Assembly (NCBI GenBank): GCA_016215115.1
Contig: JACRLN010000057.1
Coordinates: 1 to 64,000 of the forward strand
Length of the DNA: 64,000 nt
Direction: 5' to 3'
From: Nitrospirota bacterium
GTDB lineage: Bacteria; Nitrospirota; Thermodesulfovibrionia; UBA6902
In this document: positions 25,963-43,110 of the stretch, piece by piece
How positions within the stretch are numbered: the stretch's first letter is position 1
Layout of the letters: each line of letters starts with the position of its first letter
Position numbers and translations under genes: made by a program
Notes under the pieces: generated by a model
The model's input: only the letters and a program-made list of their open reading frames with translations
Told to the model about the DNA's origin: nothing
The model's database searches: none

Positions 25963-26238
25963 ATGAAAGATAAATCAGACTCAAACATCACCGGGCCTGT
26001 ACGAGGCGAATTCATTGCACCGCCGGAATTGAGCACCGAAGAAGAGTTTACCGATGCGTTACCGCCTCAGGAAGATTTCTGGCGACCGCCGGTAAGGTTT
26101 GGGAGCGCTCCTGTTGAGAAGGAGCCTCTCGGCTGGGATCGCAGGCGAGGGTTCAGAAAACTTTTCCCTGTAGTCTCTCTGCCGACGCATGTTGATGAGC
26201 GGGTCTCTTTCAGTCGTGAAAGAAGTGGAGAAATTTAG
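25963..26238 (+). CDS. Small hypothetical protein, doubtful
   Basis: A 91-residue frame rich in Pro, Glu and Arg (EDFWRPPVRFGSAPVEKEP, LGWDRRRGFRKLF). It is less AT-rich than the genes that follow. It ends inside the decayed gatB fragment, so its last about nine codons are read from gatB sequence in another frame. That, and the lack of any recognisable domain, makes its native status uncertain. It may itself be the remnant of a larger gene cut by the rearrangement that left the gatB tail. Confidence 0.4.
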   Translation: MKDKSDSNITGPVRGEFIAPPELSTEEEFTDALPPQEDFWRPPVRFGSAPVEKEPLGWDRRRGFRKLFPVVSLPTHVDERVSFSRERSGEI

Positions 26239-26346
26239 AGTAGGCTAAGAGAAACTCCTGGGCTTCTTGTCGGACAGATTATGAAGATGACAAAGGGCAA
26301 GGCCAATCCTAAGATCGTGAATGAGATATTGAACAACAATGAATGA
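26213..26346 (+). pseudogene. gatB: Decayed 3' fragment of gatB
   Basis: Read with two corrections, this stretch gives VVKEVEKFRVG, then EKLLGFL, then VGQIMKMTKGKANPKIVNEI. This is the conserved C-terminal tail of the Asp/Glu-tRNA amidotransferase subunit B (YatY tail: LGFLVGQVMK...GKANP..VNE). An in-frame TAA (26246-26248) replaces the expected Lys codon of GKEK, and one base is missing near 26270 (ttcttgtcgg where ttcttggtcgg would restore the frame). No other part of gatB is nearby. The natural gatB stop (TGA 26344-26346) coincides with the start of the nuclease-helicase gene, so this marks a rearrangement or integration boundary. Confidence 0.72.
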
Positions 26347-28702
26347 AGTCGATATTATTAAATGCTCTGAAGAAGAGAAGTACTTTTATAATCGAATTAT
26401 CTCTCAAACATTAAAAGAAACCAGTTATAAGAATGTATATCCTCAACATATTTTTATTGAAAGTACAGGGCGACAAAGAAAAATAGATTTCGCAATAATT
26501 ACCAATAATACAAAGATTGCTATTGAACTTGATGGATATACTTATCATGCCAGAGAGAAAGTCGGTCGAGATAAATTCGATGATGATTTACAAAGACAAA
26601 ATGAATTAATTTTAGATAATTGGAAAGTTATTAGATTTTCTTGGGATCAAGTACAGAAAAATCCCGAAACTTGCAAGGATTATTTAAGAAGATTAATTGT
26701 TTCTGATCCAGAACTGCATCCTTCCTTAAATTGCGTTATTTTTGAACCTCATATTTTACAGATCGAAGCTTTAAACCTTCTTCAAGAAAGCAGAGAGAAA
26801 GGAAATAAAAAAGGATTAATTGTTATGGCAACGGGGCTTGGGAAAACTTATTTATCAGCATTTGACTCCAATAGATTTGAAGGGAGAGTATTATTTATAG
26901 TTCATAATAATTCGATACTTGAACAGGCAAGAGAGTCTTTTTTAAAAGTAGCCCCTCAAAGATTATCGGGCTTTTTCAATGGATATGAAAAACAACCAGA
27001 GAAAAATTTACTTTTTGCGAATATCAATACATTGGGTAATGACAACTATTTAGCAAAATTTAATAATGATGAATTTGATTATATAATTATCGATGAATTC
27101 CATCATAGTGCTACTCAACGTTATAAGAAGGCAATTGATTACTTTAGACCGAAGTTCTTGTTGGGAATGACGGCAACCCCTAATCGAACTGACAAGAAAT
27201 CCATTCTGTATTTAGTGGACAATAATTTAGTTTATCAAGTGACTCAACTTGAAGCTATTGAAAGAGGATTTTTAACACCATTTTATTACTATGCACTCAA
27301 AGATAACGTTGATTATTCAAATATCAGGCATAATGGATACCGGTATAATTTGTACGACTTGAATAAAGCTTTGATAATAAAAAAGCGCGATGAAGAAATT
27401 ATAAAAAAATACAAAGAGATGACTAATTGTGCAAAAGCAATAGCTTTTTGTGTAACGATTGATCATGCAAAAAGAGCTGCAGAACATTTCAACGAAGCCG
27501 GTATTCCTTCTATTGCAATACATTCAGGTCTGAGCAATGAAGAAAGGATAAATCATATATCAGACTTCAGGCAGAATAAATACAAAGTTGTTTTTGTTCG
27601 AGATATTTTCAACGAAGGGATTGATTTCCCCGATGTTGAAGCTCTATTGTTTATGAGACCCACTGAATCTAAAATAATATTTACCCAACAACTTGGCAGA
27701 GGATTAAGGTTAAGCAATTCAAAATCGGCTGTTAAAATCCTTGACTACATTGGGAACTATGTGAATGCGGATAAGATTGTTGAATATCTCTCTTCTTACG
27801 GCAAGACGTTAACCTTAAATGATCTTAAGATGAAACCACTGTTTTATTTTGACAATGGTTGCAGGGTAGAGTTTGAACAATCGTCTATCGATATGCTTAC
27901 TGCATTAAATATTAATATCCCTTCTGAAGATTCCCTGCTTAAAGCTTTTTTTGAGCTTTGTATTAAATTGAGAAGAACTCCAACTATGCCAGAGATACAA
28001 TCTCAATGCAAATATAAAATTAAAAACTATTTAGAAAAATATATTACCTGGAATAACTTCATAGAAAGAATAAGAACTTTAAATTCTGAAATAGATACTA
28101 CGAATTTGCAAGTAACCAGAGAATTGTCTTTAGAAAAAGCTGAAGAATATGCAGAACTCTTAGATCATGATTTTGCCGAGTTTAAAGAAGAAATCATTCA
28201 ATGTTTAGATGCTGTAAATTCAGTTAAAGATAAATTTATAAATATCGGGCATAATCTAACACAAAATGAGAGTAGAGATTCTTTGCAGGGCATACTTGAA
28301 GTCATAGATAACCCTATCATTAGATTAAAAGAGATAACTTTGATTCTTAGTCTCAGATTTGAGAAGCCCGATAAAATATTATTAGGCGAACCTGATATTG
28401 GGGAAGACAAAAACAAATTACTTCTTGAATCGCTTGAATTTGATAATAAGGCAATATCGGATTATAGCGAGTTAGTCGCAATAAATTTACGGTCTTTCTG
28501 TAATTCGTCACTGGCATATACTTTCCCGAGAGGTTTTATACGTATTATTCATCTTGCTCAGCAGTATTCTTTTTTAATTAAACAAATAGATGAAAATGAA
28601 TGTGACGTTTTGAGCAATTTATATATGATTGCGATACAAATGTTACGACTCCTTGTTGAAGCAAAATCTGATATTGATAAGATGTTGGAACTAAGTTGTT
28701 AA
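26339..28702 (+). CDS. Nuclease-helicase fusion (Vsr/DUF559-like N-domain plus SF2 helicase)
   Basis: 787-residue protein, probably a DNA-targeting defence enzyme. Residues about 1-125 resemble a PD-(D/E)xK/Vsr-like nuclease of the DUF559 type (ID50FAI, AIE63LDGYTYH70, DLQRQNELILDNWKVIRFSW). A superfamily 2 helicase follows: Walker A MATGLGKT (163-170), DEFH box (252-255), LGMTATPNRTD, and motif VI TQQLGRGLRLS. The last about 260 residues are helical, with no recognised domain. The start lies in the gatB tail with no obvious ribosome site. Codon use is AT-rich compared with flanking genes, consistent with acquisition. Target and cofactors are unknown. Confidence 0.85.
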   Translation: MNEVDIIKCSEEEKYFYNRIISQTLKETSYKNVYPQHIFIESTGRQRKIDFAIITNNTKIAIELDGYTYHAREKVGRDKFDDDLQRQNELILDNWKVIRFSWDQVQKNPETCKDYLRRLIVSDPELHPSLNCVIFEPHILQIEALNLLQESREKGNKKGLIVMATGLGKTYLSAFDSNRFEGRVLFIVHNNSILEQARESFLKVAPQRLSGFFNGYEKQPEKNLLFANINTLGNDNYLAKFNNDEFDYIIIDEFHHSATQRYKKAIDYFRPKFLLGMTATPNRTDKKSILYLVDNNLVYQVTQLEAIERGFLTPFYYYALKDNVDYSNIRHNGYRYNLYDLNKALIIKKRDEEIIKKYKEMTNCAKAIAFCVTIDHAKRAAEHFNEAGIPSIAIHSGLSNEERINHISDFRQNKYKVVFVRDIFNEGIDFPDVEALLFMRPTESKIIFTQQLGRGLRLSNSKSAVKILDYIGNYVNADKIVEYLSSYGKTLTLNDLKMKPLFYFDNGCRVEFEQSSIDMLTALNINIPSEDSLLKAFFELCIKLRRTPTMPEIQSQCKYKIKNYLEKYITWNNFIERIRTLNSEIDTTNLQVTRELSLEKAEEYAELLDHDFAEFKEEIIQCLDAVNSVKDKFINIGHNLTQNESRDSLQGILEVIDNPIIRLKEITLILSLRFEKPDKILLGEPDIGEDKNKLLLESLEFDNKAISDYSELVAINLRSFCNSSLAYTFPRGFIRIIHLAQQYSFLIKQIDENECDVLSNLYMIAIQMLRLLVEAKSDIDKMLELSC

Positions 28703-28845
28703 TAATTTTCGTATGATGTACAGCATAAAACGCAAGGCTGCCGAGATGTGGTGTAAGCAGAGAGGAATGGAGTATTTTATTGCGACGATTTGATAATGCG
28801 GTATAAAGCGGGTAGGAATTAGTCTGAGGAAAATATGAGAGAAAG

Positions 28846-29824
28846 ATGAGTGTTATCGCGGGGTGTTCTCTATTTAACGGAGTTATTCTTTTAGCTGACT
28901 GTAGGGTTACTATAAAAAGATTCGGTAAGCCGGACGTATTATGTGATAATGCCCAAAAATTATTTCCTTTAACTAACACAACAGCAGTTGGGTTTGTAGG
29001 CGACTTAAATGCAGCTTCACAGATAATCAGAGAACTTTTCAGACAGATAACTTTCTCATATAAGAGAGGCAAAACAAACGGGCTCCATTCATTAAGTATA
29101 TCTAAATGGTTGCCTCGTTATTTTCGTTTTTATTATAGACAATTGTCGAAAAAGCAAAGTGTAAGTCGTATAGATTTTATGGTAGGCTCTGTTATTTTGG
29201 ATCGTCAGAATATAATTGAACGATCAAAAGTAGTTGAGATTATGGAAAGATTCAGATTAGGGAAATTATCCATTCAGAGAAATTGGATACCAAACATTCT
29301 TGTTAATATTCTCAAGGCTAATAATTCTCATATTATCTTGTCTGATGTCCCAGCCAACTTGCTTTATTATATGCAGTCTCCAGACTTTATCCCACAGCAT
29401 CTTGTTCCTTTAGAATTTGCTGCTATTGGTTCAGGACAGGACACCATAATTGAAATTGACAGAAATGCAGACTGGATTTTTGCCGGAGATGTAGGCAATT
29501 CTTTTATGGAAGCAAGTGCCTTTCGCCAAACTGTCAGTTCATTTATCGAAAAAAAATTCAATCTTGTCGGTCGGTGGTATGTATCCAGTCATAAAAATTC
29601 ATAGCAAAGGGTTAGAACTTCTTGGCCAAAGTGCTCAAATCCCTATCGGGGGCACAACATTTGAATTGAAGATAGATTCTAACGGAAAATGGATACAGAG
29701 AAACAGCACAACAGGAAAAGAAATTAAATTATTGTTGCCATGGGAAATCGATCCTCATAAATTTCATAAGGATGAAAGATTTGATGACCTTAAAGATGCT
29801 TTAAATAAATTTCGGATGTCATAG
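28846..29824 (+). CDS. Proteasome-like Ntn hydrolase, frameshifted near its 3' end
   Basis: The N-terminus MSVIAGCSLFNGVILLADCR aligns with the start of 20S beta/HslV/Anbu subunits. With Ser2 as residue 1, the Asp (D18) and Arg (R20) fall exactly at canonical positions 17 and 19. AQKLFPL with K38 corresponds to the KKLFQI segment carrying Lys33, and VGFVGD to the AGLVGD strand. Removing Met would expose Ser2 as the nucleophile, with no propeptide. The first frame ends at 29604; from about 29575 the +1 frame continues (GGMYPVIKIHSKGLELLGQ to a stop at 29822-29824), giving about 325 residues if joined. No ATPase unfoldase lies beside it. Possibly a defence protease or self-compartmentalised peptidase (inference). 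Confidence 0.72.
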
Positions 29825-29892
29825 TGATATGTATAATTATCAATTACGACATCAAATATCGCATGAGGTGGGGGGGGTGAGGAGGAATAAGT

Positions 29893-32121
29893 TTGTCCTT
29901 TGAAATAAAAGCCAACTTTGCAAATCTAAAATTGAAATTTTTACAATGGCGAACTGCATCCTTTGTAAGAATCGGTAAGACTTGGAGTCATATCAGTTTT
30001 TACAGTATTACCATTTTAAGCATACTTATGGCTTCTATACTTTATCTGCCATCTGCTCAAAAGGCTATTGCTCAATTTAATAATGTTGATACCTTATTAA
30101 TAGCTATTGGCGGGATGCTTGGGACAATGATTGCTCTTGTCTTTACCCTCTCGGTTATCCCGATTCAGCGGGCAGTTGAAACCTTCAGCCCCTCTGTTAC
30201 ATGGATGTATAGAAATGACCGCATAACACAATTTATTTATTTTGTTTTAGCTCTATTTTGCTTATTGCAATTTATGTTTGCAATCGAAAATGTCATTCAA
30301 GTGAGTAAAGTTTTGCTATTACCTGTTGGAATTTTCATGTTGGGAGCATCTTTTGATTTGCTTCGCTGGCATTATCGGAGAATAAGCCAAATGCTTGATC
30401 CAGGAGAGGCGATTAAGCGGTTGACAGCGGAGATTGAGAACTACATAAGACGGACCCAACAAAGACTATCTCGTTTAGCTCAAATTCAGTGGGATATGAT
30501 GACAGAGAAACAAAAAAAGGAACAGCATAGAATACAGATTGAATCAGCCTATTATTTGAGTTTAAAAGGCTACAATAACCAAATTAATCGATGGACTGGT
30601 GAACTGGCGGAGATTTCATATAAAGCAGTTGGTAAGAGTGAAATTTATTCTTCTGAAATTGCAATTGCTGCATTAGTGAGAATCGCCTGTTATTATTTAG
30701 ATACCCGGAAAGATAACATGATTGTTTATTCTTCTCCTGACGAATATTTTCTGTCTTCAGAAAGTGACGTTAATGCTGTGCTGACATCAATATATGAGCA
30801 CATGAAGAATATAAACCGAAGTGCGGTCACTCTCAAGGCTGAAACATCATGTATTCATATTGTAAGAGCGCTTGGCAGAATTGCCAGCCACACAGCGAGC
30901 CTTCAGTCTCCAGCTTTCCGGGAATACTCTGTGCCCATTACGAATTTGCCACTCGGATATTTGGAAGAATGCATATTGTCCGCTCAAAGAAATTGTCTGG
31001 ACGATGTTGTATTACAGGGAAGCAGAGATGTGCTGCATGTTACAAAAAGTGTACCCCATAACGTGCAGATTACCGATGTCTACTTGTCTGCAATAAAGGC
31101 GTGGAATAGTATGATACTTACTTTTCTTGTAACGGGAAAGGGTGTATTTGCGAACGAGATTACAAAGGATTTAATGGCGTTTTTATTCCATTTGCTTAAA
31201 CAAAAACATTATCAATTTAATAAAACTCTTGGAGAAGTTCTTGAGAAAATTGAGGGCTTGTTGCCATATGCAATAGCGCATGAAAAAATGTTCGGTTCAC
31301 CATATGTTGGCTTGCCGCTTTCGGTCCCATATGATCTTTTAACTTCCTTATCTATTGCTGATCTGGTTGCACAAGTTGAAGTACAAACAAAAGAGGAAGA
31401 TGACAAAGAATGGGTGAATCCATATCATGATTTTATAGAAATAAACGAGACAATATATCGCCATTTTCGTAGCATTGCAGAAAATGTTGATTTTGGTTCA
31501 AGCTTTCTGCTATGGCATATCATGCAGGCGATTAAACAAATTGCCAAGGTTTATTTACACCATCTGGACGATCCAGTAACTGAAGATATCGGACATCAAG
31601 CGAAGCTTGCTAACCAAGTATCCTGGTACTTATCATTTTTCTGGGTTACTTTTTCAAAAGCATCTACATTTAATTATCTTCGTGCTCGTGAAGCATGTGA
31701 TATCATTGCGTGGACTGGCTTATCTTTTCATAAATATCGAATGCTTTATCTTGCAGGATTATCCTCTAATATTACAGAATCATGTATCAGTAATATTTCA
31801 TCAATTGTGGAATCATATTGCAGATTAACTAAAAATGTTGATCCATATCAAATAGCAGAGCTTTTAGGTTATCTCTGCTATATTCGAATGCTTGCCGAAA
31901 AAGAAAACGATAAATCACTGTTGAAAAAAACTGATGAAATAATTAAAAAACCAAAATCGCTTTCAGACGAAAAGTGGGCAGAGGTAATAGAATCATTAGA
32001 GGATCAAAAGGAACACCTTCAGAACGAACTTACAAAAGATAGAGATTACAGTTTGATGGATAATGTAATGACTCTGCTACAAAAGCTTTTACGGCAGAGG
32101 GATAATCAGGAGAAGCATTGA
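29893..32121 (+). CDS. Large DUF2254-like membrane protein with long cytoplasmic C-domain
   Basis: 742 residues. The N-terminal third has four hydrophobic segments (about residues 33-52, 68-92, 110-132, 136-156), with LIAIGGMLGTMIALVFTLSVIPIQ resembling the DUF2254 family of predicted membrane proteins. The rest (about 160-742) is soluble and mainly helical, without recognised motifs. It starts at TTG 29893, supported by a strong ggaggaata site 4-12 bp upstream and by the lack of an in-frame ATG nearby. Its stop overlaps the TTG start of the Schlafen-type gene by 4 bp, so the two are translationally coupled. It may be a membrane effector or anchor of the island (inference). Confidence 0.72.
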   Translation: MSFEIKANFANLKLKFLQWRTASFVRIGKTWSHISFYSITILSILMASILYLPSAQKAIAQFNNVDTLLIAIGGMLGTMIALVFTLSVIPIQRAVETFSPSVTWMYRNDRITQFIYFVLALFCLLQFMFAIENVIQVSKVLLLPVGIFMLGASFDLLRWHYRRISQMLDPGEAIKRLTAEIENYIRRTQQRLSRLAQIQWDMMTEKQKKEQHRIQIESAYYLSLKGYNNQINRWTGELAEISYKAVGKSEIYSSEIAIAALVRIACYYLDTRKDNMIVYSSPDEYFLSSESDVNAVLTSIYEHMKNINRSAVTLKAETSCIHIVRALGRIASHTASLQSPAFREYSVPITNLPLGYLEECILSAQRNCLDDVVLQGSRDVLHVTKSVPHNVQITDVYLSAIKAWNSMILTFLVTGKGVFANEITKDLMAFLFHLLKQKHYQFNKTLGEVLEKIEGLLPYAIAHEKMFGSPYVGLPLSVPYDLLTSLSIADLVAQVEVQTKEEDDKEWVNPYHDFIEINETIYRHFRSIAENVDFGSSFLLWHIMQAIKQIAKVYLHHLDDPVTEDIGHQAKLANQVSWYLSFFWVTFSKASTFNYLRAREACDIIAWTGLSFHKYRMLYLAGLSSNITESCISNISSIVESYCRLTKNVDPYQIAELLGYLCYIRMLAEKENDKSLLKKTDEIIKKPKSLSDEKWAEVIESLEDQKEHLQNELTKDRDYSLMDNVMTLLQKLLRQRDNQEKH

Positions 32122-33791
32122 CTCTGGAAGAACTCAAAAAGCTATTAGATGAATTAAGAAGATTGCCTTCTGAAACCGAGTGGATTGAATTTAAAGAGGC
32201 AAAGCATACTTTTCACTTTAATGAAATAGGAAAATATTTCTCTGCTCTAAGCAATGAAGCAAATCTCAAAAACAAGGAATGCGGCTGGTTAATTTTTGGT
32301 ATAGAACATAAAAGCAGAAAGATTATCAATACACGATTCCGGTCAAACAGAACTGACCTCGACAGTTTAAAATCGGAAGTCGCTAATAAAACATCAAACC
32401 GTATTACTTTTATCGAAATCTATGAACTTCATCTCCCCGAAGGGCGTGTAATCATGTTTCAGATACCAGCAGCGCCTAAAGGCATTCCTGTCGCATGGAA
32501 TGGTCATTACTACGGCAGGGATGGCGAGTCTTTAGTAGCCCTGAACCTTCAGGAGATTGAACAAATCCGCAATCAGGGACAGCAATATGATTGGTCAGCC
32601 CAAATTTGCGAAGGCGCAACCATAGATGATTTAGATGTTGCTGCAGTTGTAAAAGCCAGGGAAAAATACAGAGAGAAGTTTTCTGCCAAAACCGATGAAG
32701 TAGACAGTTGGGATAACATCACTTTCCTGAACAAAGCAAAAGTTACTATTCAAGGGAAAATTACCAGAACCGCAATTATCCTTCTCGGTAAAAACGAATC
32801 AGAGCACTTTCTGAGCCCCTCGGTTGCCCGAATCTCGTGGATATTAAAAGACGAGCACAACGTTGAGAAAGATTATGAACATTTCGGCCCACCGTTTTTG
32901 TTGAATATCGAAGCGGTATATGCCAAAATCCGAAATCTGAAATATCGCTATCTTCTTGATAATACCCTTTTCCCTACCGAAGTAACGAAGTACGAGCCCT
33001 ACGTTATCCGCGAAGCATTGAATAATTGCATTGCTCATCAGGATTATGAACTTCACGGCAGAATTGCTGTTGTCGAGGGACCGGATGACCTTCTGTTTAC
33101 AAATCTTGGAAGTTTTTTGCCTGAATCCGTTGAAAAAGTTATAGAGCAGGACTCGCCGCAGGAATATTACCGCAATGCTTTCCTTGCACAGGCAATGGTA
33201 AATCTCAACCTGATTGATACTCAGGGTGGCGGTATTAAGAAAATGTTCTCCCTGCAAATGAGCCGCTGTTTCCCTTTACCTGATTATGACCTCTCGGATC
33301 CCAGTAAGGTAAAAGTGCGGATTACCGGAAAAGTGATTGACGAAAAATATACGCGGCTGCTTATCCGAAAGACCGACCTTGATCTCAAGACCATCATATT
33401 ACTCGACCGCGTACAGAAGAAAGGAATCATCGCAAGAGAAGACGCATCCCGTCTGAAAAAAATGAAGATGATAGAAGGACGATATCCTACTCTTTACGTA
33501 GCGGCTCCTATTGCATCGGCTACCAATAAGCGGGCCGAATATATACGCAACCGTTCTTTTGATGCTGAACATTATAAAAAAATGGTCGTTGCATTTATTA
33601 AAAAATACGACTCTGCAAGCAGACCGGATATCGACAAGCTATTAATGGATAAGTTGTCGGATGTATTGAATGAAAATCAAAAGTCAAATAAGATACATAA
33701 TTTATTATATGAAATGTCTAGAAGAGATAAGACTATCAAAAATATAGGAAGCAGGAAAAGACCTGAATGGGTTTTGACTTTTAAAAATTAG
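32118..33791 (+). CDS. Schlafen/AlbA_2 protein with GHKL-type ATPase region
   Basis: 557 residues. The AlbA_2 (Schlafen-like) domain is at about 15-150 (ETEWIEFKEAKHTF, with E21, E24 and K26; GWLIFGIEHKSRKI; YYGRDGESLVALNLQEIEQI). About residues 290-385 give REALNNCIAHQDYEL and TQGGGIKKMF, the HATPase_c_4 region of RecG-like/Schlafen regulators. The C-terminus is helical and possibly winged-helix. Such proteins are known as predicted regulators, tRNA/RNA nucleases or components of anti-phage systems. It overlaps the membrane-protein gene by 4 bp (TTGA) and ends the island. Confidence 0.85.
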   Translation: MTLEELKKLLDELRRLPSETEWIEFKEAKHTFHFNEIGKYFSALSNEANLKNKECGWLIFGIEHKSRKIINTRFRSNRTDLDSLKSEVANKTSNRITFIEIYELHLPEGRVIMFQIPAAPKGIPVAWNGHYYGRDGESLVALNLQEIEQIRNQGQQYDWSAQICEGATIDDLDVAAVVKAREKYREKFSAKTDEVDSWDNITFLNKAKVTIQGKITRTAIILLGKNESEHFLSPSVARISWILKDEHNVEKDYEHFGPPFLLNIEAVYAKIRNLKYRYLLDNTLFPTEVTKYEPYVIREALNNCIAHQDYELHGRIAVVEGPDDLLFTNLGSFLPESVEKVIEQDSPQEYYRNAFLAQAMVNLNLIDTQGGGIKKMFSLQMSRCFPLPDYDLSDPSKVKVRITGKVIDEKYTRLLIRKTDLDLKTIILLDRVQKKGIIAREDASRLKKMKMIEGRYPTLYVAAPIASATNKRAEYIRNRSFDAEHYKKMVVAFIKKYDSASRPDIDKLLMDKLSDVLNENQKSNKIHNLLYEMSRRDKTIKNIGSRKRPEWVLTFKN

Positions 33792-33958: not shown

Positions 33959-35213
33959 ATGAATACATATCTTATCTTAATTATTGCCGCCTACTTTCTC
34001 GTAGTCATCTTCGGCTACTGGCTTGACTATTTAAATCTTTCACATTTAAAAAAATATGGTCCGATTATCCCTCCTGAATTTGAAGGGTATATTGACCAGG
34101 CCTTGCTGAGCAAGACACAGGCTTATAATATTGAACATACAAAGTTTGATTTTATCTCATCTATATTTAACAATGTCGTATTCCTGATATTTATATTTAT
34201 CTTCCTGAATATCTACAATTCATGGATTGTTTCACTCAATCTTTCCTTTATATTGTCCGGACTCGTTTTCTTTCTGCTTTTGACATATGCCGAAACTATA
34301 ATATCAATACCATTCAATACCATTCAGTCTCTACAGTACATTTAAGATAGAGAACAGGTACGGGTTCAACACAATGACATTTAAACTATGGATAAGCGAT
34401 ACGATAAAATCCCTCTTAATCTCGACTGTCCTGATGGGTTTAGTCATAACCATCGGACTTCTTATTATTCAAAAAAATCCTGACATATGGTGGCTATGGG
34501 TGTGGTGTTTCTTCCTTGGGTTCGGAGTCTTCATGATGTACATTTCACCGTATGTAATAGAACCGCTTTTTCACAAGTTCACACCAATTGAAAACGAAGA
34601 ACTTGAAAGCGGAATCCGCAATCTCATGCAAATAGCCGGAATAAAAGTGAGCAGGGTTTTCAAGATGGATGCGTCAAAAAGGACCAAACATACGAATGCA
34701 TACTTTACCGGTATCGGAAAGGTTAAAAGGATCGTGCTTTATGATACACTTATTGAGAAAATGAATAAAGATGAAGTCCTCGCAGTCCTGGCCCATGAAG
34801 CCGGCCACTGGAAGAAAAAACATCTTTTGAAACATTTAATTGCTACAGAGGCTATTGCGCTTATTGTTATGTTTGTTTCATATCAAATCCTTCAAAGTAA
34901 TTTTCTTTTAGCTCTTTTTCACATTGAAAACAGCTCTTTTTTTGCAAAGATCGTTATTCTGGGATTCATCGGTTCGATTGTCTCCTTTCCTTTCAGTCCC
35001 GCATTTAATTATTTTTCAAGACGGCATGAAAATGAGGCTGATAAGTATTCTTATGAAATGACAGGAAATAAAGAGAGCATGATAAGCGGGCTTGTTAAAC
35101 TTTCAAAGGACAATCTCTCCAACCTGCATCCCCATCCCCTGTACGCCCTGTTCCACTATTCCCACCCGCCTGTGCTGAAAAGAATACGAACGATACGTGA
35201 ACTGGTGAAGTAA
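33959..35213 (+). pseudogene. M48 CAAX-type (Ste24) zinc metalloprotease gene split by a 10-bp duplication
   Basis: Two adjacent frames (33959-34345 and 34374-35213) together encode one Ste24-like membrane protease: N-terminal membrane helices (YLVVIFGYWLDYLNL), then after the break the zinc motif HEAGH (codons 34794-34808) and the third ligand Glu in ENEADKYSYEM. The break is an exact tandem copy of caataccatt (34305-34314 and 34315-34324). Deleting one copy restores ISIPFSLYSTFKIENRYGFN, the conserved Ste24 junction (F.LYSTF.IE..FGFN.MT). As written the gene is disrupted. It could be an allele prone to slippage, a true pseudogene or a sequencing/assembly error. The separate downstream frame keeps all the catalytic residues. 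Confidence 0.9.
34305..34324. repeat. 10-bp tandem duplication disrupting the M48 protease
   Basis: caataccatt is repeated head to tail with no spacer. The identical sequence extends by 1 base to the left and 2 to the right (34304-34326). Ten bases shift the reading frame by +1; loss of one unit gives an open frame of 1245 bp. Short perfect tandem units of this kind can expand and contract by replication slippage. Confidence 0.95.
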
Positions 35214-37786: not shown

Positions 37787-38068
37787 ATGAAAATTATCAG
37801 TATGATTTTAGTGATCCTGATTTTGTCTTTTTCGATGTGTTGGGCGCAGAAGACCCCGATGGAAAAGGCATATGGTCTGTATTTTCAGGGTAAAATGAAA
37901 GAAGCGATTAAGATAATGGAAGAACAGGGTAAAGAAAACCCCAACCCACAGACTTACTATTTTATCGGCTACGCCTACTACAAAATGAAAAAAATGGATA
38001 TGGCAAAAGAGTATTTTGACAAGGCGTATCAGTTGGAGTCGTTCTATAAGCCCGTAGTAAAGAAATAA
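37787..38068 (+). CDS. Small secreted TPR-repeat protein
   Basis: About 93 residues: a signal peptide (MKIISMILVILILSFSMCWA, cleavage before QKT) followed by two tetratricopeptide-like units (AYGLYFQGKMKEAIKIME and TYYFIGYAYYKMKKMDMAKEYFDKAYQLE). It is predicted periplasmic or outer-membrane-attached, for protein-protein contact. I start it at ATG 37787, which has gggaggaag 3-4 bp upstream, rather than at the ATG at 37769 inside the palindromic repeat. Partner unknown. Confidence 0.82.
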   Translation: MKIISMILVILILSFSMCWAQKTPMEKAYGLYFQGKMKEAIKIMEEQGKENPNPQTYYFIGYAYYKMKKMDMAKEYFDKAYQLESFYKPVVKK

Positions 38069-38095
38069 GGTCCTTCGTTAAGAGCCCTTCTTATT

Positions 38096-38303
38096 GTCAT
38101 TCTCCGGCTTGATCGGAGAATCCAGTTCTTTCCCCTGGATTCTTGCTTCCTCACTATTGCACTTTTGCACTTTTGTACTTCTACGCTTCCGCACTTCCCC
38201 CTTGCCCGTTTAACGTCATTTCGATTAGAATTAGGCGAGTGATTTTTGAGGGAGAAAGGGTAAGGGCTAAAATTTTACGACATATCGGTGCCAATTGCAA
38301 TAA
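38096..38303. repeat. Palindromic repeat and simple repeat before the RM gene
   Basis: At 38096-38126 gtcattctccggcttgatcggagaatcc forms a hairpin of the dispersed family, followed by tggattcttgc. At about 38152-38200 runs of cacttttgcacttttgtactt, with tacgcttccgcacttccc, make a degenerate simple repeat. No gene is visible here; the promoter of the restriction-modification gene is presumably in 38200-38300. Confidence 0.6.
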
Positions 38304-41300
38304 ATGTTAAAGAAATATTTAAAAAATATATTTGAGGTCAGCAAACGAGGGGACGCAACTGAATCAAGTTACTACTCCTGCATCGATGAGCTTTTTAAGA
38401 ATTATGCTGAATCAATAAACAAGAAGCAAGTTCATGTTACGACTATCCCTCAAAAGACCGATGCCGGAAACCCGGATTTCAGGGTATGGGATGGGAAACA
38501 GCATATCATTGGGTATATTGAAGCTAAAGCTCCAACCGTTAAATATCTGGATCAAATAGAAGACACTGAGCAGTTAAAACGCTATCTGCATACCTTCCCG
38601 AATTTGATATTAACCAACTTCTTTGAATTCAGACTTTATCGGGATGGTCGAATGATTGATAGTGTGCAGATTGCCAGACCTTTTTTAATACAAAAACTAA
38701 ACACAATTCCACCCGTTGAAAAAGAGCAGGAGTTTTTGAAGCTCCTTGAAGGTTTCTTTTCTTTTTCACTGCCAAAAGCATATACGGCAAAGACCCTCGC
38801 TGTAGAGCTTGCAAAAAGGACAAGGTTTTTAAAAGAGCAGGTCATAATTGAGGAATTGAAAGAGGAAGAGAAAAAGGGCAAAGGATTTATCCTCGGCTTT
38901 TATGAGGCGTTTCAGAAGTATCTTATACACGGCCTTTCAAAAGAAGATTTTGCAGACCTGTACAGTCAGACAATAGCCTATGGACTTTTTGCGGCAAGGA
39001 CACGCGCTGAGAACGGTTTTAACAGAAAGCTTGCATTCGACTATATACCGAGGACCATCGGGATATTAAGAGATGTTTTTAAGTTTATCTCCCTTGAAGA
39101 TTTACCTCCTCAGATGGAATGGGTTGTTGACGACATATCCGAAGTCCTTTCAGTTGCCGATGTAAAACAGATACTTCATAAATTTTATCATGAAGGCAAA
39201 GGGAGCGACCCGATCATTCATTTCTATGAGACATTCCTCGCGGAATACGACCCGAAGGAAAGGGAAAAGCGAGGAGTCTATTACACACCTGAACCTGTTG
39301 TCTCTTATATTGTCCGTTCTTTGCACAATATTCTAAAGAACTATTTTGATAAGGGAGACGGCTTTGCATCAGGCTCCGTAACCGTGTTGGACCCTGCGGC
39401 TGGAACGCTTACATTCCTTGCTGAGGCGGCCAAATTGTCGGTTGATGAATGCACTTCCAAATACGGCGAAGGAACCAGAACACCCCTTATAAAGGAATAT
39501 ATCCTTCAAAATTTCTATGCCTTTGAATTAATGATGGCGCCTTATGCTATCGGTCATTTGAAAATGTCTTTTATGCTTGAAGAGCTCGGATATAAACTTC
39601 AGAAGGACGAGAGATTTAATCTCTATCTCACAAATACCCTTGAAATGGATGAGCTTGAGCAGACCTCACTGCCGGGGATGGCGTCACTTTCAGAGGAATC
39701 GCATCTTGCGGGAATTGTTAAAAAGGAAAAACCCATACTCGTAATACTTGGCAATCCACCTTATTCAGGCCATTCAACCAATATCGGAGACTGGATATCA
39801 AAAGAGATAAAGGCATATTATCATGTTGACGGCAAGCCTCTCGGTGAAAAAAATCCCAAATGGCTTCAGGACGATTACGTGAAATTCATACGTTTTGCGC
39901 AGTGGAAGATAGATCGGGCAGGTGAGGGAGTTTTAGGCTTTATCACAAACCACAGCTACCTTGATAATCCGACATTCAGGGGAATGCGGCATTCATTGAT
40001 GCAAAGTTTTGACGAGATTTATCTGCTCGACCTTCACGGCAACAGCCTTAAGAAAGAGAAGAGCCCCGGCAGCTCAAAAGATGAGAATGTATTTGATATT
40101 CAGCAGGGCGTTGCCATTTCACTGTTCATTAAAAAAGGGGAAAAGAAAAAAGAGCCGTTCTATCCAACGCCGGAGCCTTCACCCCAGATGGATATTTTTA
40201 CGGAGGAAGAAAAGGAGGTTGAAGAAAAGCCCAAAAGGCACAAATGCAAGGTTTACCATTCGGAAATATGGGGACTCAGGGAGCATAAATATGACTGGCT
40301 CAGTAAGAACGACATAACAACAACGAAATGGAAAAAGTTAAAACCCAAATCCGAATTCCATTTCTTTGTGCCGAGAGATGAAAAACTGTTGAAGCAGTAT
40401 GAGTCATATCCGAAGATAACAGATATCTTCCCTGTTAACAGCGTGGGAATCGTTACTTCAAGAGATGGCTTTGTTATAGACGATGATAAAACGATTCTTA
40501 AGCGCCGTATCCGTATGTTCATAGATAAAAAAATGACGGATGATATTATAAGGCAGACCTTTTCGTTGCCCGACACCTCAAAATTCAATTTAGAAAAAGC
40601 TCGTGAAGCTGTCAAAGACGATATAAATTGGGAAGACAAGATAACGAAGATTCTATACAGACCTTTTGATGAGCAGTGGATTTTTTATCATGATGCCGTT
40701 ATCGAACGTTCACGCAGAGATGTTATGCAACATATGATGCAAGAGAACGTGTCTATTTGTTTTATGAGACAAGTTTCTTTAGAAGAAAGCTACACTCATT
40801 TTATTGCAACTGAACACATAGTTGATAACAGGACATTTTTAAGCAGTAAAGGGATTATTCAGCAAGCACCCCTCTATCTTTACAAGCCAAAAGAAAAACC
40901 TAAAAAGCGTTCCTTAAACAGCGTCATGATGCTATTTGAACCGGAGGCAGAGTATTTTGTGAGAAAGCCGAACATTGCTCCGGCAGTGTTTGAAAACCTG
41001 GAAAAGGCTTTTAAGAAAAGACCGGAATCCGAACAAATCTTCTTTTACATTTACGCCGTGCTTCATTCAAACATCTACCGCACAAAATATGCCGAGTTCC
41101 TGAAAACAGACTTTCCAAGAGTCCCTTTTACGAGAGACCGTAAGTTTTTTATGATAATGGCTGAGTACGGCAACTCCCTTGTCGAGCTTCACCTGATGAA
41201 GGCTAAGGAGCTGGATAAAACCAAAGTAAAATTTCGGAGCGGCAGGAATAAGATAGAGAAGCTAACATATGATTCCGAATCAGAACGTCTTTACATAAAC

Positions 41301-41519
41301 GAAGATCAGTATTTTGAGGGAATAGTGAATGAAGTATGGGTGTACCGGGTAGGTGGTTATCAGGTTTGTGAGAAATGGCTGAAAGACCGAAAAGGAAAAA
41401 CATTATCTCTTGAGGACATAAAACATTACTGCAAAGTTGTGACCGCTTTGCAAAAGACAATAGAGATTCAACACTTAATTGATAAAATTTACCCTGAAGT
41501 TGAGAAGGAAGTTGTTTAA
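38304..41519 (+). CDS. Single-chain restriction-modification enzyme (type IIG/ISP-like)
   Basis: 1071 residues combining nuclease, adenine methyltransferase and specificity parts. The N-terminal PD-(D/E)xK nuclease has GNPDF with D58 and YIE73AK75AP. A helical region follows. The methyltransferase has SAM motif I VTVLDPAAGTLTF (about residue 358) and motif IV LGNPPY (N484), so it makes N6-methyladenine. The C-terminal about 450 residues match the type ISP specificity region (KVYHSEIWGLREHKYDWL, FRSGRNKIEKLTYD, IKHYCKVVTALQKTI). No helicase domain is present, unlike LlaGI-type ISP enzymes. It stands alone, with no separate methylase or specificity gene, and protects the host from foreign DNA. 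The recognition site cannot be read from sequence. Confidence 0.9.
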   Translation: MLKKYLKNIFEVSKRGDATESSYYSCIDELFKNYAESINKKQVHVTTIPQKTDAGNPDFRVWDGKQHIIGYIEAKAPTVKYLDQIEDTEQLKRYLHTFPNLILTNFFEFRLYRDGRMIDSVQIARPFLIQKLNTIPPVEKEQEFLKLLEGFFSFSLPKAYTAKTLAVELAKRTRFLKEQVIIEELKEEEKKGKGFILGFYEAFQKYLIHGLSKEDFADLYSQTIAYGLFAARTRAENGFNRKLAFDYIPRTIGILRDVFKFISLEDLPPQMEWVVDDISEVLSVADVKQILHKFYHEGKGSDPIIHFYETFLAEYDPKEREKRGVYYTPEPVVSYIVRSLHNILKNYFDKGDGFASGSVTVLDPAAGTLTFLAEAAKLSVDECTSKYGEGTRTPLIKEYILQNFYAFELMMAPYAIGHLKMSFMLEELGYKLQKDERFNLYLTNTLEMDELEQTSLPGMASLSEESHLAGIVKKEKPILVILGNPPYSGHSTNIGDWISKEIKAYYHVDGKPLGEKNPKWLQDDYVKFIRFAQWKIDRAGEGVLGFITNHSYLDNPTFRGMRHSLMQSFDEIYLLDLHGNSLKKEKSPGSSKDENVFDIQQGVAISLFIKKGEKKKEPFYPTPEPSPQMDIFTEEEKEVEEKPKRHKCKVYHSEIWGLREHKYDWLSKNDITTTKWKKLKPKSEFHFFVPRDEKLLKQYESYPKITDIFPVNSVGIVTSRDGFVIDDDKTILKRRIRMFIDKKMTDDIIRQTFSLPDTSKFNLEKAREAVKDDINWEDKITKILYRPFDEQWIFYHDAVIERSRRDVMQHMMQENVSICFMRQVSLEESYTHFIATEHIVDNRTFLSSKGIIQQAPLYLYKPKEKPKKRSLNSVMMLFEPEAEYFVRKPNIAPAVFENLEKAFKKRPESEQIFFYIYAVLHSNIYRTKYAEFLKTDFPRVPFTRDRKFFMIMAEYGNSLVELHLMKAKELDKTKVKFRSGRNKIEKLTYDSESERLYINEDQYFEGIVNEVWVYRVGGYQVCEKWLKDRKGKTLSLEDIKHYCKVVTALQKTIEIQHLIDKIYPEVEKEVV

Positions 41520-41526
41520 GAAAACG

Positions 41527-43110
41527 TCAATCAATCCAGGTTACCGTCTGATCTTTTCTGCAGGCAGTATGTTTCTGCCAGTTGTCGCCTTTTGACTTGC
41601 AATCGGAACGGTAGTGGGCCCCGACACTGCCTTTTCTTGCAAGCGCAGCGTCAGTAATAAGTTGTGCAACGGTCAGCATGTTCTTCAATTCAAACCCCCT
41701 CCGGTTTTGAAAAGACATATCCAGAATAGCATTTTTCTTATCGAGCCACTTTTTTGCAATGGACAGAGATTCTCCACATCTTATGATTCCAACCTTGTTC
41801 CACATTACCTGCCTCAGGGTGCTCCTTGTTTTTTCAACATCAAGAGCGGACATTGAAGACGCTTTGTCAGAGAACCCTTCAGGATATGATTCAATGCCGG
41901 CAATATCTATATTTTCCTTATCGATATAGTGTGCCGCCTGTTTTCCCGTCCTCGCTCCATATACAAGTCCCTCGAGGAGGCTGTTTGATGCAAGACGATT
42001 TGCGCCGTGGACCCCTGTGCTGGCAACTTCCCCAGCAGCGAAAAGCCCCTTGATACTGGTTTCCCCATAGATATTTGTGTAAACACCGCCCATAATGTAA
42101 TGGGCAGCCGGAGAAACAGGTATCAGATCTTCAGTGATGTCAATGTTGTACTGAAGGCATGTAGCGTAAATGAGGGGAAATCGTTTTTTTGTAAATTCTT
42201 TATCTAAATGAGTAAGGTCCAGATAAACATGCCTTGAGTTCGTCTTGACCATTTCAGAAACGATGGCCCTTGTTACAGCATCCCTTGGAGCAAGCTCTGA
42301 CATTTCATGATACTCAGGCATAAACCTTTTTCGTTGAGTGTTTTTTAATACAGCGCCTTCGCCTCTCATCGCTTCACTTAACAGGAAAGGCGGCGCCGCC
42401 GGAAAATAAAGTGTAGTTGGATGGAACTGTATAAACTCCATATCAGAAATTAAAGCACCTGCCCTGCAGGCAATTGCTATCCCGTCACCGGTTGCGATCA
42501 TCGGGTTTGTGGTCCTTGAGAAAACCTGCCCAGCTCCCCCGGTTGCTAAAATCACTGCTTTTGCAAAAATATTAAAAACTGTGTCGTGTCTGAGAACAGT
42601 AGCGCCGACGCACCTGTCATTCTCCAAAATCAAATCAAGTGTAAAGGCAAAATCAAATCTTGAAATAGAAGGAAAGGAACGTGCTTTGTTGATAAGGACC
42701 CTCTCAATTTCTTTCCCGGTAGCGTCACCACGGGAATGAAGGATTCTTTTCCTGGAGTGAGCCGCTTCCATTGTAAAAGAGAGCTTACTTCCTTCCTTGT
42801 CAAATTCAGCGCCCCATGATATTAATTCAAGTATGAGACCCGGCCCTTCTTCAACCAGTATCCTGACGGCATCTTCCCTGCAAAGCCCATCGCCGGCCTT
42901 TATGGTATCATCATAATGGATGCCAACTTCATCTTCATCGCTCAAGGCAACGGCGATACCACCTTGAGCATATTCTGTACTGCTTTCCGTAGGTTTGTCT
43001 TTTGTAAGTACAAGTACACTGCCTTTTGGGGCCAGTTCAATAGCCGCTCTCAGCCCGGCAACTCCTCCTCCGATTACAAGAAAATCCACAGTCTTTATGG
43101 AAGGTTTCAT
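41527..43110 (-). CDS. nadB: L-aspartate oxidase
   Basis: FAD enzyme that turns L-aspartate into iminoaspartate for NAD synthesis. The FAD-binding loop is VIGGGVAGLRAAIEL (residues 11-25), with STEYAQGGIAVALS, the catalytic-region HSRGDATGKEIE and MEFIQFHPTTLYFP. AGEVASTGVHGANRLASNSLLEG is diagnostic for the NadB/SdhA family, and the substrate features SEAMRGEGA and PAAHYIMGGV fit NadB. 527 residues is normal. nadA and nadC are not adjacent. It converges with the restriction-modification gene, with 7 bp between them. Confidence 0.95.
   Translation of the reverse strand: MKPSIKTVDFLVIGGGVAGLRAAIELAPKGSVLVLTKDKPTESSTEYAQGGIAVALSDEDEVGIHYDDTIKAGDGLCREDAVRILVEEGPGLILELISWGAEFDKEGSKLSFTMEAAHSRKRILHSRGDATGKEIERVLINKARSFPSISRFDFAFTLDLILENDRCVGATVLRHDTVFNIFAKAVILATGGAGQVFSRTTNPMIATGDGIAIACRAGALISDMEFIQFHPTTLYFPAAPPFLLSEAMRGEGAVLKNTQRKRFMPEYHEMSELAPRDAVTRAIVSEMVKTNSRHVYLDLTHLDKEFTKKRFPLIYATCLQYNIDITEDLIPVSPAAHYIMGGVYTNIYGETSIKGLFAAGEVASTGVHGANRLASNSLLEGLVYGARTGKQAAHYIDKENIDIAGIESYPEGFSDKASSMSALDVEKTRSTLRQVMWNKVGIIRCGESLSIAKKWLDKKNAILDMSFQNRRGFELKNMLTVAQLITDAALARKGSVGAHYRSDCKSKGDNWQKHTACRKDQTVTWID

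Follow-up and report, generated by a model that had tools for sequence, protein, structure and literature searches.

A 64,000-nucleotide stretch from a Nitrospirota bacterium (contig JACRLN010000057.1, positions 1 to 64,000; hereafter the window) carries four consecutive plus-strand genes for a nuclease-helicase, a proteasome-like N-terminal nucleophile (Ntn) hydrolase, a membrane protein and a Schlafen/AlbA_2 protein. In an original prediction these genes were taken for a defence-type island at 26339-33791 that might form one system. We consider it probable, at roughly 0.6, that the locus is a defence hotspot in which exchangeable anti-phage modules have been swapped in beside a resident Schlafen-type gene, rather than one four-gene machine. 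The features on which this argument draws are:

25980..32103, no strand: 6124-bp segment, for which the sister genome G317 has 205 bp (blastn of locus L019 against the window).
26254..26346, plus strand: C-terminal gatB fragment, or scar (PF02637 GatB_Yqey, E 1.8e-9).
26339..28702, plus strand: 787-amino-acid nuclease-helicase; MTES_1575/DUF559-type region at about 46-118, ResIII at 136-283, Helicase_C at 360-458 (Pfam, PADLOC).
28846..29604, plus strand: N-terminal 252 codons of the proteasome-like Ntn hydrolase (Ser2, Asp18, Lys38, Gly52; N-terminus 84% identical in genome G008).
29516..29824, plus strand: open reading frame (ORF) with the apparent out-of-frame C-terminal continuation of the hydrolase, in the +1 frame from about 29560 (motif, codon-position GC).
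29893..32121, plus strand: 742-amino-acid membrane protein with a DUF2254-like N-terminus (Pfam, hydropathy, AlphaFold2); homologue after HsdS in L030.
32118..33791, plus strand: 557-amino-acid Schlafen/AlbA_2 and GHKL-type (HATPase_c_4) protein (Pfam), in the flank common to the sister genome.
38304..41519, plus strand: type IIG restriction enzyme-methyltransferase (PADLOC, E 5.7e-256), missing from the sister genome at the same site.

Comparison with the sister genome shows that modules were swapped at one site: the Schlafen gene was retained, and what stands upstream of it was replaced. Homology between the two genomes stops at window position 25979 and resumes at 32104, 14 bases ahead of the Schlafen start codon. 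Between these shared flanks the window holds 6124 bp, with the nuclease-helicase, hydrolase and membrane protein genes, and the sister 205 bp; at the same site the sister encodes a Schlafen protein 93% identical to that of the window. Because the segment missing from the sister is 25980-32103, the Schlafen gene belongs to the shared flank. The island edge differs from the one first drawn, and the inserted segment stops short of the Schlafen gene. In the sister, the end of a 79-amino-acid ORF overlaps the Schlafen start codon just as the membrane protein gene does in the window. This ORF is 55% identical over 60 amino acids to residues 437-496 of a 504-amino-acid protein at L049 that has AAA_15 and OLD-like TOPRIM domains, a likeness which suggests that an OLD-type defence gene probably once stood at the sister's site. 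A second presence/absence difference lies at 38058-41561, where the window has the type IIG restriction-modification (RM) gene and the sister 60 bp; this gene, 4.5 kb downstream, is part of the same defence-rich stretch.

Several features of the original description held. The ORF listing places the four plus-strand genes exactly where they had been drawn, including the 4-bp overlap between the membrane protein ORF, which ends at 32121, and the Schlafen ORF, which starts at 32118. The gatB scar is a genuine match to its family and marks past recombination. The reported AT-richness is seen as a GC content of 0.356 in 25980-32103 against 0.408 in the window outside 25980-33791, with the Schlafen gene at 0.403. 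Between the island edge and the gatB scar there is a 91-amino-acid ORF (25963-26238) with no Pfam match at E 1. A scan for promoters and terminators gave counts close to those that chance predicts (32 for an expected 27.8, and 5 for an expected 4.8). Further downstream, at 33959-35213, a 10-bp tandem duplication divides the gene for an M48 (CAAX-type) protease into two ORFs; the sister has a single ORF of 414 amino acids.

The resident Schlafen protein matches SLFN_AlbA_2 (E 2.4e-14, 54.3 bits against a cut-off of 25.3) and HATPase_c_4, as had been proposed. When it was aligned with 19 relatives, E19 and E24 were present in all 19 sequences that reach that far, and N303, G370 and G372, which we take to be GHKL-type motif positions, in all 20. 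The third acidic position, placed by a spacing of the three acidic catalytic residues that we presume from SLFN13, varies (E in 8, D in 3, N in 3, K in 2, T in 1, R in 1 and a gap in 2). Searches with PADLOC-DB 2023 gave at most 32.5 bits, to pAgo models, and no system match. The protein occurs in 9 of 37 family genomes (E 1e-30) and 15 of 295 phylum genomes (E 1e-60), its own genome included in both counts.

For the surroundings of its homologues we considered 24 loci, the window excluded: all family and phylum matches together with the four plasmid records, out of 67 with a match, that cover at least 80% of the protein and were opened. An RM core gene, defined as HsdM, HsdS, HsdR, an N6 or N4 methyltransferase or a ResIII-type helicase on the same strand and labelled by phmmer, stands near the Schlafen gene at 14 of them (L021, L022, L023, L024, L047, L050, L051, L053, L054, L055, L056, L006, L008 and L009). 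At L047 the label is a 306-amino-acid helicase fragment about 730 bp upstream, and L006 and L009 are alike, their Schlafen genes being 90% identical in DNA. Pfam upheld the labels where they were tested (L021, L022, L023, L024, L050, L051, L053 and L006). The order is HsdM-HsdS-Schlafen-HsdR in L021 and L051 and methyltransferase-Schlafen-ResIII in L022, L024, L006 and L009; in L050 a hydrolase-type gene precedes the Schlafen gene. Six further loci without an RM gene (L020, L026, L046, L048, L052 and L057) have a contig edge within 1 kb upstream. Across the 24 loci, the membrane protein and the window-type hydrolase were each found at none, and a hydrolase-type protein at one (L050).

Two other arrangements were seen at these loci. 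At L049:6551-12213, three tandem Schlafen/AlbA_2-type genes come after genes for an OLD-like protein and an AIPR protein. A DprA-like gene lies downstream of the Schlafen gene at 4 of the 24 loci (L020, L026, L046 and L057), matching DNA_processg_A in L020 and assigned by phmmer in the rest.

Homologues of the membrane protein are rare. Among the 295 phylum genomes it was found in one, its own; a scan of contigs with two short patterns from the protein gave 62 pattern matches and one relative, at 33% identity, in a gammaproteobacterial locus (L030). There the order is HsdR-HsdM-HsdS-membrane protein, with the membrane protein gene 6 bp after HsdS and a weakly HEPN-like gene behind it (the HsdM, HsdS and HsdR labels in L005, L021, L030 and L051 were tested by Pfam). 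In 398 genomes of that relative's phylum, only the protein of the L030 genome itself was found, and viral contigs gave none. One plasmid record, from Ensifer, encodes a relative with 24% identity, whose neighbours are a CHAT gene on the opposite strand and a DUF5677 gene. The description of the protein as DUF2254-like stands for residues 40-214, which match PF10011 (E 1.1e-9, 38 bits against a 28.8-bit cut-off), and for four hydrophobic segments in the hydropathy profile; the match is confined to those residues and spans profile positions 12-197 of 368. An AlphaFold2 model (mean predicted local distance difference test score, pLDDT, 62) predicts an all-helical C-terminal part. Its best-ranked structure matches are designed repeat and general helical-repeat proteins, so we claim no fold beyond membrane helices and a helical C-terminal part.

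The hydrolase is proteasome-like in its catalytic residues and only weakly so in overall sequence. The residues expected of a proteasome-like Ntn hydrolase (an N-terminal Thr or Ser and equivalents of Asp17, Lys33 and Gly47) are present: the likely catalytic set Ser2, Asp18, Lys38 and Gly52 is found in the window protein and in a 67-residue relative in G008 (L005), and D18, K38 and G52 are also kept in a Salmonella plasmid protein (L032), which has Thr2. The portion of PMC8665760 available to us assigns such positions the roles of nucleophile, triad partners and oxyanion glycine. Matches to PF00227 (E 0.0074, 16.4 bits against a 22.4-bit cut-off) and to the archaeal beta subunit model (E 0.00086, 18.9 bits against 224) were weak, no family model was matched above its cut-off, and an AlphaFold2 model from the single sequence (mean pLDDT 34) was of no use for the alpha-beta-beta-alpha fold. 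PADLOC-DB 2023 has no model that matches the hydrolase ORFs or the membrane protein.

The hydrolase was found in 2 of the 295 phylum genomes, its own and G008. The G008 copy is the 67-residue start of a gene at a contig edge, 84% identical to the window protein, and begins 54 bp after HsdM in the order HsdR-HsdS-nucleotidyltransferase-HEPN-HsdM. The nucleotidyltransferase and HEPN genes (L005:2000-2739) lie inside this type I RM cluster, between HsdS and HsdM. No further copy was found in 36 other family genomes, 229 other class genomes or nine relatives of G008, and a search of the records behind L030, L004 and L006, made without a positive control, gave none either. Phages, viral contigs and plasmids gave no copy at E 1e-3; at E 10 the plasmid search returned four records, two of them from Salmonella at E 1e-3. 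Distant relatives are a 346-amino-acid Salmonella and a 257-amino-acid Arcobacter plasmid protein, the latter encoded directly after a HEPN/Toprim gene.

The hydrolase gene appears to be frameshifted, with 28846-29604 continuing in the +1 frame to 29824. That frame is open to this point and its codon-position GC is like that of the hydrolase frame. The motif [STY][IVL]GG-x5-K[VIL][YHF], which was chosen post hoc, has a single occurrence across the six frames of the window. It lies in the +1 frame, directly behind a run of eight A near 29550, and shuffling the surrounding 300 bases 20000 times never produced it. In a second hydrolase-type subfamily described below, four of eight sequences have it at residues 205-210 (L058, L059, L060 and L062); it is absent from L050, L063, the first pieces of L064 and L065, L032 and L033. 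The frameshift could be either a mutation or an assembly error at the A8 run. We set aside a programmed frameshift because the offset of the second ORF differs among the four broken copies (1, 1, 2 and 0 in the window, L061, L064 and L065). As the frame is broken, the hydrolase is probably inactive in this strain.

This break also suggests a different account of the whole segment, namely that it is decaying cargo losing its function. The split of the M48 gene relative to the sister and the gatB fragment fit such decay, as do the hydrolase-type genes in two pieces in 3 of 8 records (L061, L064 and L065). However, the helicase (787 amino acids), membrane protein (742) and Schlafen (557) frames are long and open, the conserved Schlafen motifs are intact, and the hydrolase frameshift could itself be an assembly error. 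We regard decay as an unlikely explanation of the segment.

The first gene of the segment encodes a nuclease-like region fused to a superfamily 2 (SF2) helicase, much as first described. Its helicase part matches ResIII (E 7.4e-40) and Helicase_C, and its N-terminus matches MTES_1575 at E 7.5e-8, under that model's cut-off, and DUF559 at E 2.4e-5, over its cut-off. The PADLOC model mREase_IV matches residues 134-591 only (E 2.3e-70), and the HsdR of L030 matches the window protein at E 3.4e-19. Methylases adjoining the Schlafen gene in L024 and L051 bear a fused DUF559 nuclease domain, the type seen in this gene (Pfam).

In the few genomes where they were seen, homologues of the hydrolase, membrane and Schlafen families are extras of type I or type III-like RM operons, lying within them or next to them. 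Relatives of three of the four genes have RM-type neighbours, a type IIG gene lies downstream and the sister retains an OLD-like remnant; the defence-type character first proposed for the island is borne out in this sense, and the contexts of the relatives are more defence-like than housekeeping, though in small numbers and with no random-gene control. If the locus is a hotspot of exchangeable modules, its four genes need not act as one complex. The 787-amino-acid protein would work by itself in the manner of an RM enzyme's motor-nuclease subunit, cutting incoming DNA. The Schlafen/GHKL protein would be one of the backup effectors often kept beside RM genes, probably an RNase that its ATPase domain gates, and the membrane protein a second, membrane-acting effector or an anchor. 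The hydrolase would process one of the other three proteins or a phage protein.

Several observations weigh against this interpretation. When window ORFs of at least 60 amino acids were searched by phmmer at E 1e-5 with RM references, eight of them for HsdM, HsdS and methyltransferases (including three for HsdM and three for HsdS), none of these eight gave a match. Only the 787-amino-acid helicase matched, as HsdR-like, and no type I set of HsdM and HsdS with HsdR was seen in the window. Four Schlafen loci have no RM label in view and no contig edge within 1 kb upstream to account for it (L019, L007, L025 and L049), and the count of 14 of 24 has no background rate from random genes to set beside it. 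One RM-linked relative was seen for the membrane protein and one for the close hydrolase, so that chance placement is possible, and no RM gene was recognised among the scanned neighbours of the full-length Ensifer homologue. The 4-bp overlap between the membrane protein and Schlafen genes could mean real coupling, though the remnant ORF in the sister overlaps likewise. Finally, we infer every step of the mechanism outlined above from domain type.

A second hydrolase-type subfamily was seen at L050. The order there is HsdM-HsdS-hydrolase type-Schlafen-HsdR, and the hydrolase-type protein has no BLAST match to the window hydrolase at E 1e-3 and no Pfam match. T2, D22, K37 and G52 are invariant in six sequences of this second subfamily. 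Its kinship with the first rests on these residues, on sub-threshold HslV matches and on a weak profile similarity (probability 1 with two rows and 48 with three rows); the Arcobacter protein matches both subfamilies with weak scores. Among the 295 phylum genomes the second subfamily is strong only in G251, with two further matches near E 1e-3 in frames of 177-183 amino acids. Phages and viral contigs gave none. It occurs in eight plasmid-collection records, one of them a 4.9-Mb E. coli record, and at least 80% of the E. coli stretch is held by 126 of 5426 E. coli genomes. The E. coli copy that was read is split into two ORFs, and across the eight records the gene is in two pieces in three, as in the window.

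PADLOC was run on a total of eight neighbours from four of these records (L058, L059, L060 and L064). L060 and L064 gave GajA and GajB, L059 gave Leo proteins and L058 a Ppl-like ATPase; by annotation, L061 has the same paired-GTPase arrangement as L059. Gabija or Leo-like genes are near the second-subfamily gene in four of the eight records. A Schlafen gene of the window family lies within 8 kb in none of the eight, and the annotated records among them name no RM gene. It is tempting to speculate that type I RM operons and other defence islands (Gabija, Leo) recurrently carry, as auxiliaries, proteasome-like Ntn hydrolases from two subfamilies or more. Such a hydrolase would work with a Schlafen-type partner and might, for instance, be the protease by which a backup effector is activated or released once restriction has failed. 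We offer this as a tentative idea with a minor chance of being correct; that proteasome-like hydrolases are auxiliary genes of RM operons is, at the few loci concerned, a new lead.

The L050 arrangement, with a hydrolase-type protein directly ahead of a Schlafen homologue, also bears on the claim that the hydrolase, membrane and Schlafen proteins work together as a single new defence system, which may or may not include the helicase. Their shared strand, short spacing and 4-bp overlap agree with it as well. The L050 protein belongs to a different subfamily, however, no other trio was found in the 295 phylum genomes, and the contig pattern scan gave a single membrane protein relative without the other two genes nearby. 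In the sister genome the Schlafen gene stands without its two supposed partners, and in the window the hydrolase frame is broken. The relatives are mostly apart, an outcome that the original prediction had itself named as telling against a single system, and we consider such a system distinctly improbable. It is very unlikely that the membrane protein and hydrolase act in general stress or in the envelope and are here by accident: DUF2254 is a broad, uncharacterised family and no RM gene was recognised by eye among the neighbours of the E. coli hydrolase-type gene, but relatives of both proteins are placed in RM operons, Gabija and Leo genes lie near the hydrolase type, and both proteins are patchily distributed.

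Extra effector genes in RM operons are already known. If hydrolases and the DUF2254-like protein prove to be regular extras of this kind, this would give a first functional context to proteasome homologues that a dedicated survey (PMC8665760, as far as its accessible text goes) left unplaced, and would suggest proteolytic control in restriction systems. If the reading of the hydrolases as auxiliaries is true, a group of proteasome homologues with no known function would acquire one. Among the matches listed, we found no paper that ties a proteasome homologue to RM or Gabija, and none was found on DUF2254 with defence, in searches that most subscription journals and some preprints fall outside.

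Known systems resemble the hotspot in parts. The nuclease-helicase shares an SF2 helicase core with mREase_IV type IV-like restriction proteins but differs in having its nuclease in an N-terminal MTES_1575/DUF559-type region, outside the matched stretch. The membrane protein has the N-terminal membrane part of DUF2254 in common, whereas its helical C-terminal part of about 530 residues lies outside that match. According to the accessible sections of Fuchs et al. 2021 (PMC8665760), which describe 22 subfamilies of new proteasome homologues, these carry an N-terminal Ser or Thr as nucleophile and have Asp, Lys and Gly where they would be expected, as here; those sections report that no genomic context hinted at function, in contrast to the RM and defence contexts of the relatives described above. 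AlbA_2 genes on mobile elements, one of them with a type III RM subunit, are mentioned in the part of PMC10561277 that we could consult. The available excerpt of PMC12839542 describes Schlafen plus kinase-like proteins that serve BREX as backup effectors; these BREX-linked Schlafen effectors share the SLFN_AlbA_2 and HATPase_c_4 architecture of the window protein, but the neighbours seen here are RM genes, either type I or type III-like, and BREX genes were not searched for. A further parallel is given by type I RM operons with embedded auxiliary modules, such as the phage-active RRDM island of E. coli, in which, according to the accessible text of PMC12255303, DarTG lies between HsdS and HsdR. 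Homologues of the window's Schlafen protein occupy the same HsdS-HsdR gap, which holds auxiliary effectors in that island, in L021, L050 and L051; the window itself differs in carrying genes of auxiliary type without HsdM or HsdS, and in its membrane protein and hydrolase.

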